Source: a virus. Taken from it: a stretch of DNA of 23,167 bases. The position numbers and the translations under genes are program-made. Under the pieces are notes generated by a model. It did not search any database, was not told where the DNA came from, and was given only the letters and a program-made list of their open reading frames with translations. Shown here one piece after another: positions 2,106-14,563 of the stretch. The stretch is taken from the IMG/VR virus record IMGVR_UViG_3300048044_000070, positions 1-23,167 of that record, one strand, 5' to 3'. Every line of letters starts with the position of its first letter. Position 1 is the stretch's first letter.

Positions 2106-2111
2106 ATTATA
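2106..2111 (-). promoter_or_regulatory. Possible -10 box for the intergenic RNA
   Basis: A perfect TATAAT on the minus strand overlaps the stop codon of the RuvC-like gene. It is placed so that transcription would begin near 2099, just before the first hairpin of the RNA candidate. No good -35 lies at 16-18 bases; TTGCAG is present, but 21 bases away. This is therefore only a partial promoter match. Confidence 0.3.
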
Positions 2112-2571
2112 CCTGAGAAATCCAGTAAGCATCTGCAAGATCAGATAACCCAGTTGTCAACTTATAATTCTTATCTGTAAACATCTTCTTAATATCATCT
2201 GGCAAGGCAGCAATCATATCTTTCTTCTTAAACTTGCCATCACCTGCTCTCTTCTTCACTGACTTAGGAGAAATGATTCTGAAATTCTTGAACACATGTA
2301 AATGTGATATCACATTAATGATTGTGAATAACAATCCAGCAAGATCTCTCGTGGCATCTCCTCTCATTCCAAAAGCCAAACCTTCTAATCGTATCTCAGT
2401 TGGTGTGTATGTAAGAAACACTCTACCAAGTTCTAAACTAAGATTCAACGCTCTTTCGTAGATTGTCTTTTGTTTATCCGAATGTAGCACATCAAAAGCA
2501 ATTACGTCTCTTCCGTTTGTAACGCACCAAGCACAATGAGTATAACTTTGATCGATTGATAATATTGTCAT
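2107..2571 (-). CDS. RuvC-like Holliday junction resolvase
   Basis: A 154-residue protein with the RNase H-like resolvase pattern: N-terminal strand ILSIDQS with D7, then RLEGLAFG with E63, and a C-terminal helix GLSDLADAYW carrying D144 and D147. These acidic residues match the order and spacing of the RuvC catalytic tetrad, and the length is close to bacterial RuvC. It would cut four-way and branched DNA made by phage recombination before packaging, the job done in T4 by the unrelated endonuclease VII (gp49). It lies at the end of the operon that also encodes the gp46/gp47-like nuclease. Its ATG is preceded by a small hairpin that buries AAGG one base from the start, and no well-spaced Shine-Dalgarno is seen. 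The RNase H-fold nuclease call is strong; the resolvase function is inferred. Confidence 0.82.
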   Translation of the reverse strand: MTILSIDQSYTHCAWCVTNGRDVIAFDVLHSDKQKTIYERALNLSLELGRVFLTYTPTEIRLEGLAFGMRGDATRDLAGLLFTIINVISHLHVFKNFRIISPKSVKKRAGDGKFKKKDMIAALPDDIKKMFTDKNYKLTTGLSDLADAYWISQV

Positions 2572-2611: not shown

Positions 2612-3019
2612 TTAGCTCTTCAAAAACTTTTCTGTGTCTACAAGAAATTCATTTGTCTCGCGAAGAAAATCTTCTATCTCTTGTCTCATAGCAGCTATTT
2701 CTGCTGGTGTATGATCTACGATCTTACCACCAAGAATATGTTCATTAACATTTTTTAGTTCTTCACGATCAGCAACACTGGTATATCTTGCAAAATTAAA
2801 TTGCTTGTCCCTATCAACATCTTTGATAGGATCGAATCCACTATAGTTTATGTTAACTGAACGCTTTGCATCTTCATAATGCTGATCTGAGATGATCTTT
2901 AAAACTTTGCTTTTCTCGTAAGGATATGGAAGAGTATCGGCTAACTTTATCAATAGTTTTTCAAATTGATCATTAACAATTGCTCTTATAAAATTTTCAT
3001 CTATGTTTACTGTAACCAT
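2612..3019 (-). CDS. Unrecognised 135-residue phage protein
   Basis: No known family is recognised. The protein is charged and looks mostly helical, with an N-terminal segment MVTVNIDENFIRAIVNDQFE, a central KDVDRDKQFNFARYT region, and a C-terminal acidic helix (about residues 103-132, EIAAMRQEIEDFLRETNEF) that could form a coiled coil. The ATG at 3017-3019 has a good Shine-Dalgarno (AAAGGGA, about 5 bases upstream) and follows the previous stop codon by one base. It sits between the five small motif-bearing proteins and the RuvC-like gene, but lacks their shared C-terminal motif. Confidence 0.75.
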   Translation of the reverse strand: MVTVNIDENFIRAIVNDQFEKLLIKLADTLPYPYEKSKVLKIISDQHYEDAKRSVNINYSGFDPIKDVDRDKQFNFARYTSVADREELKNVNEHILGGKIVDHTPAEIAAMRQEIEDFLRETNEFLVDTEKFLKS

Positions 3020-3020
3020 A

Positions 3021-3419
3021 TTAGTTTCCCTTTATATCAATGATAGACATTGCTCTATCATAGTTGGAATATTTATCCTCAACCTCAATGGGAATACCGC
3101 ATACATGATTGAAAAGCATTTCAGTTGAGATGTATTTGTTATTTTTCATGAACTCCAAGTCGCCTTGTGTTAGACACTTCATAATTTCTTTGTCGACGGA
3201 TTTTACTATTTCTGCACCAATCATTTTCATATATTCGTCTTCAATACTATAGTCAGGCCATTCAACCACATAATTAACATCAAAGTGTATTGCATTTGTC
3301 CAACATTGGTCGTTTGGTATTTTATCTTTAAAATCAGGGTCGTATTCTAATTGATTATAATCTACAAGATCAAGTTTCTTTGACCAAGGAAACTTTTCTT
3401 CAAACATATAACTTGTCAT
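3021..3419 (-). CDS. Unrecognised 132-residue protein with C-terminal YDRAMSII motif
   Basis: No known family is recognised. It is acidic, rich in Tyr, Asp and Glu, with no signal peptide or membrane segment. The C-terminal end carries Y-D-R-A-M-S-I-I followed by five residues (DIKGN). The same motif closes the four genes upstream in the operon. The start overlaps the previous stop codon as ATGA. The Shine-Dalgarno GGAG lies inside the motif-coding region of the upstream gene. The motif DNA here is also a perfect 8-bp inverted repeat (ATGATAGA/TCTATCAT). Confidence 0.75.
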   Translation of the reverse strand: MTSYMFEEKFPWSKKLDLVDYNQLEYDPDFKDKIPNDQCWTNAIHFDVNYVVEWPDYSIEDEYMKMIGAEIVKSVDKEIMKCLTQGDLEFMKNNKYISTEMLFNHVCGIPIEVEDKYSNYDRAMSIIDIKGN

Positions 3420-3715
3420 TTAATTATCTCCATTGCTCTTTCATAGTCTGTTTGATCAACAGGTTGTGATTTTGATAAATCTGGTTTCATTATACGTGGT
3501 GTAGGTGTGGAACTAATAACTGTTAATGATACTTCTGGTGGTATTGCAACAATATTAATTGCTGGATCAGGAAATACCTGTCTCCATAACTTAGTAGCAT
3601 TCTGTAGATAATCTTGTTTACGATTTGATGGTATATTTTTGCAATTAATTTGAATAACTAATGTCTCACCTGGTTGTAAATTTACCTTCTTAATATCTTC
3701 TATTTCTATTGTCAT
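3416..3715 (-). CDS. Unrecognised 99-residue protein with C-terminal YERAMEII motif
   Basis: The N-terminal part (KVNLQPGETLVIQIN, about residues 10-24, then a helix and an FPD turn followed by AINIVAIPPEVSLTVI) suggests a small alternating alpha/beta fold of the kind common in short phage proteins. No function can be named. Residues about 70-90 are Pro/Ser/Thr-rich and look like a flexible linker that holds the final motif DYERAMEIIK at the extreme C-terminus. The start overlaps the previous stop codon (ATGA), and the Shine-Dalgarno GGGG comes from the motif codons of the upstream gene. Confidence 0.75.
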   Translation of the reverse strand: MTIEIEDIKKVNLQPGETLVIQINCKNIPSNRKQDYLQNATKLWRQVFPDPAINIVAIPPEVSLTVISSTPTPRIMKPDLSKSQPVDQTDYERAMEIIK

Positions 3716-4005
3716 ACAATCCCCATTGCTCTGTTATATGCTGCCAAAGGCGCATCATTTTTCTTAATCAGTAATTCGTGTGATTTGTAAATGTCGTTTG
3801 GAAAGTAAATCAAAATTCTTACGTTCATTTCTGTATCTGTAATTTCTGGAAAGAATTCATAATCTTCAAGATCAAATTTTAACATTGCTCCAAGCAAGTA
3901 TGTTGAAAAATGGGTCAGAATTGCGTCTCTTGAACTACATCTCTTCAGAAGATTTGTTAAATCTTCTTCTATAGCGTTTAAATTCTTTGATTGTACAAGA
4001 TTCAT
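3712..4005 (-). CDS. Unrecognised 97-residue protein with C-terminal YNRAMGIV motif
   Basis: No family is recognised. It is a mixed, partly hydrophobic small protein with a helical first half and a strand-like MNVRILIYFPND segment. It ends exactly at the motif A-Y-N-R-A-M-G-I-V with no tail. An in-frame GTG at 4012-4014 would give 100 residues. The ATG at 4003-4005 is preferred because AGGTGG sits five bases before it. That Shine-Dalgarno overlaps the last codons of the upstream gene, so the two are likely coupled. Confidence 0.7.
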   Translation of the reverse strand: MNLVQSKNLNAIEEDLTNLLKRCSSRDAILTHFSTYLLGAMLKFDLEDYEFFPEITDTEMNVRILIYFPNDIYKSHELLIKKNDAPLAAYNRAMGIV

Positions 4006-4006
4006 T

Positions 4007-4411
4007 TCATCCACCTATGATAGCCATTGCTCGTTCATAGTCATCGTATGGATCACTTGATACGGCAGGTACTTTTGTTAAACGAAACCATGATAGTGGC
4101 CACGAGTCTTGTGTTATAAGAGACATCTCTTCAAACTTATGAATTGGACCAGAATAAATGTTTACATTAACAAATGTTTCAGTAGGTGTTGCAGTTGATG
4201 TACTTGGCAAATTGCCTTGATGTTCGCTACCTGGAATAATTTCAACAAAGATGTATTCAATTAAAATGTTCAAATGTGAATCATGTACCATAGCAATGAA
4301 TGCGGGAGCACCATCGCCTGTATCTTTAATAACAGCGGATGGAATCCTGTCAGTTTCTATAACACTTCCAATAATGATTTGATCATCATTCCAATAATTA
4401 CCGTATCTCAT
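4007..4411 (-). CDS. Unrecognised 134-residue protein with C-terminal YERAMAII motif
   Basis: No family is recognised. The sequence alternates short hydrophobic strands (QIIIGSVIET, LNILIEYIFVEII, FVNVNIYSG) with turns, which looks beta-rich. A Ser/Thr/Pro-rich stretch lies near residues 86-95. It ends DDYERAMAIIGG, the shared motif plus two glycines. The start overlaps the end of the upstream gene by 14 bases, and AGGCG lies a few bases before the ATG within that gene's last codons. Confidence 0.75.
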   Translation of the reverse strand: MRYGNYWNDDQIIIGSVIETDRIPSAVIKDTGDGAPAFIAMVHDSHLNILIEYIFVEIIPGSEHQGNLPSTSTATPTETFVNVNIYSGPIHKFEEMSLITQDSWPLSWFRLTKVPAVSSDPYDDYERAMAIIGG

Positions 4412-4610
4412 TTGAATCGCCTATAATAGACATTGCTCTATCATAATTTTTTCGATCATTAATTCCAAACACAATGTTTACTCCTGCCCCCATTATTTTA
4501 GTCATTGGGTCGTCAGGATCCATTTGTTTCAACATTTCTTCATAATGTTCTTTTGGGTATGATTTCAAAAAATCATAATCAAAGTCTTGTAATTTTTTAT
4601 ATTCTGTCAT
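4398..4610 (-). CDS. Unrecognised 70-residue protein with C-terminal YDRAMSII motif
   Basis: The shortest of the five motif-bearing proteins. It has an acidic, aromatic N-terminal half (DFDYDFLKSYPKEHYEEML) and then the motif NYDRAMSII with a seven-residue tail. Its motif DNA is nearly identical to that of the 132-residue protein at 3021-3419, and both have a similar K-[IM]-[MI]-G-A segment, so the two may share a duplicated origin. The start shares one base with the gp46-like stop codon (TAATG), preceded by AGGATGAG. Confidence 0.75.
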   Translation of the reverse strand: MTEYKKLQDFDYDFLKSYPKEHYEEMLKQMDPDDPMTKIMGAGVNIVFGINDRKNYDRAMSIIGDSNEIR

Positions 4611-6373
4611 TACTCATCCTCATATCTTAGTGAACTGAAACCACCTGATAATTGAACGATCATTTTTCGATCAAATGCACTATTAAGTTCATTTCTATGA
4701 CTAATGATATATAACGCTAACTTTTCTTCGCGCGCTTTGTGCTTCAACATCTTTGCCGCCGCCTGAACACTAATATCATCTAATCCAACATCTAGTACTT
4801 CATCAAGTAGACATATATTTACATGATCATGCATGCTCTGTAATACGTCTCTGAATGCAAACGAAAGGGCAATGTTAACACACGCCTTTTGTCCGTTTGA
4901 TAAGTTACCAAAATCAGCTTCATGCCCAAATTGGGAAATATTTGCAGTCATCTCGTGAGTAAATTCAACTGTGTGAGGTAACCCTAAATCAACCAAATAC
5001 TTTTGCATTCTCTGATTTAGGAATGGAATATTCTTGTTAAGTATTGCCTTACGAACGAAACTATCTTTCTTTGTAAGTAGCTTGAGTAAGAATGTTTGAT
5101 GTGTAAGAGATAGGTTAAGTTCATTAACTGTAGACATATCCTTTTCATCAAGTTTGATAGCTTCTAATTCCTGTAAAGGATCTAAGAAAGGATTAACGGC
5201 ACTCATTAAATCGGCACACTTTGTTTGTAATTGTGTGATACTGTTTTTGATTTGTAGTAGTTGTTCAAGATTTTCAACTGCAAGTTTTGCTTTCAGTTTC
5301 TTGTAGTTGCTTGACTGTTTCTTGACTTCGCCGGCTGCTTCTCTATATTTGAGAGATACAGCTGTATGATTTTCTTGTGCTTTGTGTAGAGCTGCTTCAA
5401 TCTTCTTTTTATCCTTTGTAGCAATATGGAAGTCTTGTTTACAATATGGGCAATGACCACTATCTAAATGTTTAAGTTCGTGTGACAAATCTGTCATCGT
5501 TTTCTGGATTGTTGTAATTTCTGCATCAGATTTCATTTGCTCTTGAATTACTTGTTCAAGTTCAGTTTCTAATCTTTCAAGTTCTTCCAACAACAATCGT
5601 TGCTCTGTAACATCAATTACTTTTAGTCCCTGGATTTGTGTGTTAAGTTTTTCAATCTCTTTAAGATTGTTAGCTTCCCAATTACTGACACGCAGACGTG
5701 CAGCTTCCAACTGCTTTGCGTAACGTTCGTGTTCCTTTTCAAGCTGTTCATGTCGTTCATTAACAGCTTCTAAGGCAAGTTCTGTATCTTTGATGATAAC
5801 CTTTAAGGCTTCAGCTTTTGTGGATAGCGTTACAATATCAAACAACTCTTCAATAATGTCGGTTTGATTTGTTTGTGATGCATGACGGGTTGGCAGATCA
5901 AAGAATGGAGTATGTGTAGCAGAGAATGTTACAATACGAACGAATAACTCATACTTGATACCAATGATTTCAATAATTTTATCATCAGCTTTGCTGGCTG
6001 GAGTAATATCTTCCCCATCCTTAATGATTTGAATGAGATTGCCAGCACCAGCTTTTGTTTTCCTTCCACGCGTTACAACATACGTGCTTCCATCTTTTTC
6101 AAACTCAACACTAACAATCATGTTCTTCTTATTAACCCAGTTAATAAGATTATCAAGTTTCTTGATTGTTGAAACAGGTTTGTCGTACAGACAATATACA
6201 ATAGCATTAAGTAGTGTTGTTTTTCCAACACCATTTGATCTTATCCCATTTGCTGTATTGTCAAGATTTTCACCTGACATGAAAATTGTTCCAGGACGAT
6301 CTAATTCAATTGTCGTAGGTACTGCACCATATGACATGAAATTTTGCATCGTCACTGATTTGAATACTATCAC
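4610..6373 (-). CDS. 46: gp46-like recombination nuclease ATPase subunit (SbcC/Rad50 family)
   Basis: A 587-residue SMC-like ATPase that with the gp47-like subunit should resect DNA ends for phage recombination-dependent replication. Seen in order: N-terminal P-loop SNGVGKTT with K51; coiled-coil arm about 185-300; zinc hook CPYC at 308-311; return coiled coil about 318-390; ABC signature LSNGQK at 491-496; Walker B CLLDE ending at E525; H-loop ISHR with H559. The length is close to T4 gp46 and much shorter than bacterial SbcC. Translation starts at GTG (6371-6373): an in-frame stop lies two codons upstream, and AAGGGG sits six bases before it. It follows the gp47-like gene by 24 bases and overlaps the next small gene by one base. 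Confidence 0.95.
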   Translation of the reverse strand: MIVFKSVTMQNFMSYGAVPTTIELDRPGTIFMSGENLDNTANGIRSNGVGKTTLLNAIVYCLYDKPVSTIKKLDNLINWVNKKNMIVSVEFEKDGSTYVVTRGRKTKAGAGNLIQIIKDGEDITPASKADDKIIEIIGIKYELFVRIVTFSATHTPFFDLPTRHASQTNQTDIIEELFDIVTLSTKAEALKVIIKDTELALEAVNERHEQLEKEHERYAKQLEAARLRVSNWEANNLKEIEKLNTQIQGLKVIDVTEQRLLLEELERLETELEQVIQEQMKSDAEITTIQKTMTDLSHELKHLDSGHCPYCKQDFHIATKDKKKIEAALHKAQENHTAVSLKYREAAGEVKKQSSNYKKLKAKLAVENLEQLLQIKNSITQLQTKCADLMSAVNPFLDPLQELEAIKLDEKDMSTVNELNLSLTHQTFLLKLLTKKDSFVRKAILNKNIPFLNQRMQKYLVDLGLPHTVEFTHEMTANISQFGHEADFGNLSNGQKACVNIALSFAFRDVLQSMHDHVNICLLDEVLDVGLDDISVQAAAKMLKHKAREEKLALYIISHRNELNSAFDRKMIVQLSGGFSSLRYEDE

Positions 6374-13894: not shown

Positions 13895-14563
13895 ATGAAT
13901 TACTTAAAACACTATAACACATTGGTAGATAGAGCAAAAGGCAGAGTATTAGAAGGATACTCTGAAAGGCATCATATTATTCCAAAATGCATTGGTGGAA
14001 ATAATAAAAAAGATAATTTAGTTAGATTAACACCAGAAGAACACTATGTAGCTCACCAACTATTAGTAAAGATTTATCCTGGAAATCACAAATTATTATT
14101 TGCTGCGTTTGCTATTTCAAGTATGAACAATCGAGGGTTTAGAGAATACGCGTGGTTAAAAAGAAAACGAGCTGCTTACCTATCTAGTAGACCTGGAACG
14201 ATGACTGGAAAAAAGCACACGGACGAAGCCAAACAAAAAATGAAACAAAATCACTGGTCACAAACTGGTAGTTTTGATGCCTCAAAACCAAAAGGAAAAG
14301 ATAGTCCAAACTATGGAAAGCAACATAGTCAAGAAACATTACAAAAATTGAAAATACCAAAAACTCTTGAGTGGCGAACAAAAATGTCTGGTGAGGGTAA
14401 CCCAAACTACGGTAAACATTTTTCTGATGAATCGAAGCAAAAAATGAGAGAAAGAGCCATTAATAGACCTAAGCCAACATGTCCTTATTGTGGTACTATA
14501 GCAATGGGCAAGATGATACGATATCATTATGAAAATTGTAAATCTTTAGTGAGGGCTGCATAA
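13895..14563 (+). CDS. Free-standing HNH homing endonuclease with NUMOD3 repeats
   Basis: A 222-residue selfish endonuclease. The HNH domain is N-terminal: ERHHIIPKCIGG with H26/H27, DNLVRLTPEEH with N41 and H50, and AHQLL with H54. Three DNA-binding NUMOD3 modules follow (about 103-117, 137-153 and 168-187; SPNYGK and NPNYGK cores). A C-terminal zinc finger has C196, C199, H211 and C215. It sits between the spike and gp25-like genes, which are not split. Its stop codon shares a base with the gp25-like ATG, and its last codons (GAGGG) provide that gene's ribosome site. No clear ribosome site precedes its own ATG; a late promoter box ends five bases before it. Target site unknown, most likely the homologous junction in related phages. 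Confidence 0.93.
   Translation: MNYLKHYNTLVDRAKGRVLEGYSERHHIIPKCIGGNNKKDNLVRLTPEEHYVAHQLLVKIYPGNHKLLFAAFAISSMNNRGFREYAWLKRKRAAYLSSRPGTMTGKKHTDEAKQKMKQNHWSQTGSFDASKPKGKDSPNYGKQHSQETLQKLKIPKTLEWRTKMSGEGNPNYGKHFSDESKQKMRERAINRPKPTCPYCGTIAMGKMIRYHYENCKSLVRAA

Follow-up and report, generated by a model that had tools for sequence, protein, structure and literature searches.

Five consecutive small proteins encoded by a T4-like phage end in one peptide, YxRAMx[IV][IV], placed 0-7 residues from the stop codon, and about 56 tags of this kind are found at C-termini in 18 related contigs, on bodies without detectable common ancestry. The tail is best explained, with somewhat better than even probability, as a modular helical tag for docking or targeting to one common putative partner, and would likely link assembly and packaging intermediates to that partner.

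The tagged proteins of the window

The window, that is, the whole stretch of DNA analysed, is a 23-kb (23,167 nucleotides) IMG/VR fragment of a T4-like phage (IMGVR_UViG_3300048044_000070); among named phages the closest to it are the jumbo phages XacN1 and RAS14/CM1, with 40-48% identity in gp46 and a helicase. The tagged genes are five consecutive minus-strand ORFs between a gp46-like gene and a RuvC-like gene (Table 1), and the common ending reported for them in a sequence-only reading of the DNA is confirmed in all five. That reading also held that no other protein of the window has the motif, which is borne out: the 19 called genes (7,472 aa) contain the core pattern at five C-termini and at no internal position, against a shuffled expectation of 0.000, and at the DNA level a degenerate version of the tag picks out the five sites and nothing else in the window, with matches in 0 of 100 shuffles. 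Among the baseplate genes, an ORF at 13895-14563 on the plus strand has NUMOD3 motifs and an HNH-like start, and is probably a homing endonuclease.

Table 1. Tagged genes of the window and the genes that flank them.
Feature	Position	Strand	Remarks
Tagged protein 1 in transcription order, 70 aa	4398..4610	-	YDRAMSII at 4445-4422, 7 aa before stop
Tagged protein 2, 134 aa	4007..4411	-	YERAMAII at 4039-4016, 2 aa before stop
Tagged protein 3, 97 aa (100 aa from GTG 4014)	3712..4005	-	YNRAMGIV at 3738-3715, exact C-terminus
Tagged protein 4, 99 aa	3416..3715	-	YERAMEII at 3445-3422, 1 aa before stop; portal-segment (P) family
Tagged protein 5, 132 aa	3021..3419	-	YDRAMSII at 3062-3039, 5 aa before stop
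gp46-like (SbcC-type) nuclease subunit	4610..6373	-	phrog_77 E 1e-100; directly upstream of tagged run; untagged
RuvC-like resolvase	2107..2571	-	phrog_159 E 2e-24; downstream of tagged run; untagged
135-aa ORF	2612..3019	-	between RuvC and tagged run; untagged

The five bodies had been described as otherwise different, and within the window this stands: with the tag removed, no pairwise similarity among them is significant (all E at least 0.17), and full-length homology, the mark of simple duplication, was looked for among the five and not found. The description does not hold everywhere, as some neighbouring tagged proteins in relatives are paralogs (L222 8591/8919, E 7e-5; G021 65412/65699, E 3e-8). 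Searches of the window's tagged proteins against Pfam, PADLOC and PHROGs gave nothing convincing besides phrog_23805, which is matched by the 99-aa protein (E 2.9e-8); compared with the other members of the P family this protein scores prob 32, E 5e-4, and by its profile matches it is the one body in the window convincingly assigned to a virion-derived family. Residues 39-83 of the 132-aa protein weakly resemble a T4-like major capsid profile (hhalign prob 20, E 1e-3; reversed control E 0.28). The 97-107-aa tagged proteins were considered as relatives of sheath domains of the G023/G025/G026 type, for which profile support is absent, and profile comparison failed to place the protein at 4007-4411 in the K family described below.

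Anatomy of the tag

Over the approximately 56 tags the consensus is [YF]-[DEN]-[RD]-A-M-x-[IV]-[LIV]; position 1 is Tyr or Phe, position 2 mostly Asp, Glu or Asn, position 3 mostly Arg and otherwise Asp, position 4 an invariant Ala (demanded by the pattern itself), position 5 a near-invariant Met, position 7 Ile or Val, and position 8 Leu, Val or Ile. Thirty tags are located at the exact C-terminus, and the others end 1-7 residues short of the stop. Arg is encoded by all six of its codons and Ala by all four, and the two Tyr codons TAT and TAC appear 21 times each; synonymous codons are therefore free and selection acts on the peptide, as had been suggested from the window's five copies.

The hydrophobic moment of the tag at 100 degrees is 0.59, compared to 0.39 for shuffled tags and 0.34 for other C-termini, and at 160 degrees it is 0.16 compared to 0.39; by this calculation the peptide would have a strongly amphipathic character in helical but not in strand conformation. 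The 12 residues preceding the tag have a net charge of -1.9 versus -0.06. Two AF2 models of window proteins, with pLDDT of 56 and 36 and thereby too low for fold searches, both place a helix at the tag: in the 99-aa protein a low-confidence tail (63-90) leads into a terminal helix (91-98), and in the 134-aa protein, modelled with very low confidence, the tag is drawn as terminal helix 121-133. The predicted form is that of a helix carried on an acidic linker. A 338-aa ORF of G023 contains two copies of a wall-type domain, with a tag at its terminus and an internal YERAMNIV after the first domain, and looks as if two tagged genes had been fused.

Distribution among related phages

Protein and nucleotide searches of named phages return just distant relatives (XacN1, RAS14, PA5oct and Atu_ph07; 40-48% identity in conserved genes), and the tag DNA pattern detects no tag in XacN1, RAS14/CM1, PA5oct, Atu_ph07, Phosso or Vibrio 2.275.O, the one match, in RAS14, being off-consensus. 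An IMG/VR search with the tag as DNA led to L019, where an ORF ending YDRAMGII lies immediately before the gene for the gp52 topoisomerase subunit. Profiles of gp46 and RuvC recovered about 115 related loci, in which the RuvC-like resolvase gene serves as the syntenic anchor; tags are carried there by small genes in the interval from gp46 to RuvC or a short way past it, with two in L034/G014, two in L020/G002, four in L023/G005, six in L025/G007, three in L116/G021, and three plus one degenerate copy in L222. G014 has one further tag directly before gp52, in the same place as in L019. Pattern searches of the related phages gave 61 matches. After removal of five that were judged to be chance, about 56 tags remain, in 18 contigs of uncultured T4-like jumbo phages; three more are found in L252 and L279. 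This spread, together with the diversity of the bodies, supports the original suggestion of a shared C-terminal tag.

Whole-contig scans of the 363-kb G021 identify 10-11 tags, spread over the genome and located only at C-termini (core pattern: 10 C-terminal versus 0.01 expected, 0 internal); equivalent scans of the untagged relatives G003 and G020 give 0 tags, and the K-family protein of G003 has the tail AYHNAFSGV, possibly a degenerate tag. On the RuvC tree the tag is clustered yet patchy, requiring 5 changes versus 13.8 when shuffled, with L120 drawn as untagged though it carries YNRAMKVC. At L107, L109 and L112 the ORF before RuvC is a different one, which replaces the tagged genes and ends MEEISFTEE(D/E)LDELI....

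A tag-plus-stop DNA pattern, applied independently of synteny, matches 14 IMG/VR contigs, eight of which are from this phage group; the remainder comprise an endolysin-like look-alike (two contigs), one other protein (two contigs) and two matches without a suitable ORF. The look-alike (L221 5317 and L224 1762) is an unrelated phage protein, its family recognised by eye, that ends YERAMSVL. The Phe version of the pattern has 20 scattered single matches in 257 Gb of bacterial and archaeal genomes.

The gp46 genes of G010 and G009 (L028 6839-9544 and L080 7449-10292) contain approximately 310-360 extra residues after the Walker A GVGK, including a LAGLIDADG homing-endonuclease domain; the insert is probably an intein in the P-loop. 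ORF305 of XacN1 (L005 6927-10226) features gp47 and gp46 fused in one 1099-aa ORF.

Bodies that carry the tag

Without the tag, the bodies belong to many families with no detectable homology between families. Two of these recur in conserved order before RuvC: the P (portal-segment) family, found in the window (3416-3715), L222 (9789-10109), G021 and G024, and the K family, found in G021, G022, G025 and twice in L222. Absence of the motif from relatives that keep the same genes was named in the sequence-only reading as evidence against a tag; tested on the P family, such absence was not found, the tag being kept in the window, L116/G021 and L117/G024 and degenerate in L222.

Five kinds of tagged body originate from proteins of the virion or of its packaging machinery: sheath, portal segment, capsid paralog, terminase ATPase and a chimera. 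The sheath C-terminal domain is recognised in bodies from G023, G025 and G026 (E 2e-12 to 4e-18), and sheath matches among the virion-derived bodies range over E 1e-12 to 2e-22; in the P family the resemblance covers 26 residues of the portal (profile comparison prob 95, E 2.7e-8), and the portal match among the virion-derived bodies has E 3e-11. A tagged terminase ATPase domain matches TerL (E 1e-9) with a Walker A region, QSRQVGVSS, that is broken; a tagged major-capsid paralog (E 4e-45) adjoins the terminase in G021; the 435-aa tagged chimera combines a sheath domain with a short capsid stretch (E 8e-4) and a portal stretch. Full-length untagged genes for sheath, portal, capsid and terminase are also present in these genomes. 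The sheath pieces are about as similar to the sheaths of other phages as to their own, and are therefore considered to be old. G003 and G020 each have TerL divided between two ORFs, and in G021 a 315-aa TerL-like ORF (324070-325017) is located directly before the full-length TerL.

Paralogous or partial ORFs of the four virion proteins are tagged in 7 of 10 cases, whereas the 1,397 called genes as a whole have about 50 tags (Fisher p 5e-9); the count omits the split terminase genes of G003 and G020, and the p value is optimistic, as there are about five independent origins and the four sheath-type proteins are probably one family. Tagged bodies without a virion link also exist, among them the K family, SH3-like and Cys-rich proteins.

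Proposed function of the tag

Docking to one common partner, as first proposed from the window, is the simplest reading of an amphipathic helix preceded by an acidic linker. The linker would probably be flexible and would hold the helix at the C-terminus, or close to it, in a wide range of small phage proteins. One hydrophobic face, made up of the aromatic residue (Tyr/Phe), Ala, Met and the last two aliphatic residues, would seat in a groove of the common partner, and each body would bring its own binding activity. Intermediates of virion assembly and packaging, as well as some other targets, would thereby be connected to the partner, which may be the prohead core or an assembly and quality-control hub; the origin of several bodies from virion and packaging proteins makes an assembly role the most likely. 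The partners suggested in the sequence-only reading, a polymerase, a clamp or the gp46/47 nuclease, have gained nothing specific in their favour: untagged relatives also have gp46/47, and tags are located far from these genes too, beside gp52, beside the terminase and scattered in G021. Phylogenetic profiling over very few genomes returned five candidates and singled out no partner; one weak candidate, present in three tagged genomes, is a lysine/glutamate-rich protein (G021 329088-330089).

The best placed of the alternatives, although an unlikely one, is a virion-packaging signal that would load small proteins into the prohead for delivery to the next host; such a signal would amount to docking in which the partner is the prohead core. 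The T4 internal proteins IPI-IPIII have a common 10-residue N-terminal capsid-targeting sequence (CTS) that directs them to the prohead core and is cleaved by gp21, and the CTS, carried on divergent proteins, has been proposed as a general loading device of T4-like phages (PMC9026906). Like the CTS, the tag is a short peptide common to small phage proteins with divergent bodies; tagged genes are small, numerous and fast-diverging, and the position of the G021 capsid paralog next to the terminase would suit packaging. However, the tag is found at the opposite end of the protein and on many more proteins per genome, pieces of the tail sheath carry it too, and gp21-type sites ([LIVMF]xE; [LI]xE in the T4 CTS) are not enriched before it (26 of 53 versus 28.7 shuffled); the protease specificity of these phages may differ.

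A turnover tag is slightly less probable again. Degrons of the ssrA/ClpXP type are short hydrophobic C-terminal peptides found on many proteins, and the tag could likewise act as a hydrophobic degron for ClpXP-like or Lon-like proteases of host or phage, either making its carriers short-lived or having bound virion proteins dragged to the protease. The hydrophobic C-termini fit, and ClpP-like genes are present in G021, G014 and G024; however, a ClpP-like protease is encoded equally by the untagged G003 and G020 (loci L116, L034, L117, L021 and L047, respectively), and no AAA_2 unfoldase scores above the cut-off. Unlike ssrA, the tag is gene-encoded each time; it tolerates 1-7 further residues in nearly half of the cases and has one internal copy, which differs from a strict C-terminal degron, and a fixed helical Y-x-R-A-M consensus exceeds what a degron needs.

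It is also conceivable, if improbable, that the tag marks a set of baits or adaptors, in which separately expressed fragments of terminase, portal, capsid and sheath from the phage itself, a number of them probably inactive or chimeric, would serve as decoys that bind virion-sensing host immune receptors or would block the assembly of competing phages, the tag handing the bound cargo to one phage effector. Virion proteins do trigger bacterial immunity, as seen for capsid and CapRel (PMC9712102) and for terminase, portal and tail tube (review PMC10286901). The tagged bodies include pieces of several of these triggers, an overlap that bears on this speculative reading and no other.

Descent of all tagged proteins from one tagged ancestor, through duplicates so diverged that the C-terminus alone is recognisable, is very improbable. 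Tagged genes do stand in tandem, and clear paralogs occur among neighbours in L222 and G021; however, bodies from different parents (sheath, portal, capsid and terminase) contradict a single origin and already largely refute it. Furthermore, in G022 the protein orthologous to the tagged capsid paralog has FEATMKEI at its end in place of the tag, and therefore the tag changes independently of the body.

A translated DNA or RNA element at gene ends, whether a recombination site or a signal for translation coupling or processing, has very little probability left. T4-type phages shuffle small genes by way of conserved intergenic cassettes, and the tags are found at the 3' ends of tightly packed genes; however, the reading frame is constant and synonymous codons are free, in contrast to the conservation of DNA outside coding sequence that marks such cassettes, and the gene of the G021 capsid paralog meets its neighbour tail to tail, so that its tag has no gene downstream for coupling. 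Chance, or an ordinary C-terminal helix of the kind seen in the endolysin-like look-alikes and the scattered bacterial matches, is refuted for this phage group by the counts in G021 and the window and by the clustering on the RuvC tree.

Comparison with known docking peptides

Besides the T4 CTS, the nearest parallel to a docking tag is the cargo of encapsulins, in which C-terminal targeting peptides on diverse proteins dock to an HK97-fold shell (PMC8346489). The tag resembles these peptides in being short, C-terminal and borne by diverse carriers, here on an acidic linker and, in one AF2 model, a low-confidence tail. Encapsulin cargo proteins are enzymes encoded beside the shell gene; in contrast, many tagged bodies are pieces of virion proteins, and tagged genes are mostly far from the capsid gene, with runs beside gp46/RuvC and gp52. 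We know of no sequence link between encapsulin targeting peptides and the tag.

The C-terminal tip of SSB and the sliding-clamp-binding motifs likewise place a short hydrophobic docking peptide at the C-terminus, behind an acidic linker, an arrangement shared by the tag; however, the tag does not contain a DDDIPF or QLxLF-like sequence, and peptides of those types are borne by one protein (SSB) or by known replisome proteins. In kind, the tag is a shared docking or targeting peptide. No description of such a tag was found in the open-access full-text literature, and as far as can be told several of its features are new: the sequence, the C-terminal location in phages, how many proteins of one genome carry it, and the association with pieces of virion proteins.

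Significance

In giant phages, the majority of small genes lack an assigned function. A common tag ties dozens of these orphans, from about 18-20 contigs, to one presumed partner, and a single partner could account for many orphan proteins at once. The tag also provides a sequence-only handle for finding further members, and may be useful as a fusion tag. Furthermore, it illustrates how new phage genes are put together from parts of virion genes and a ready-made targeting peptide.
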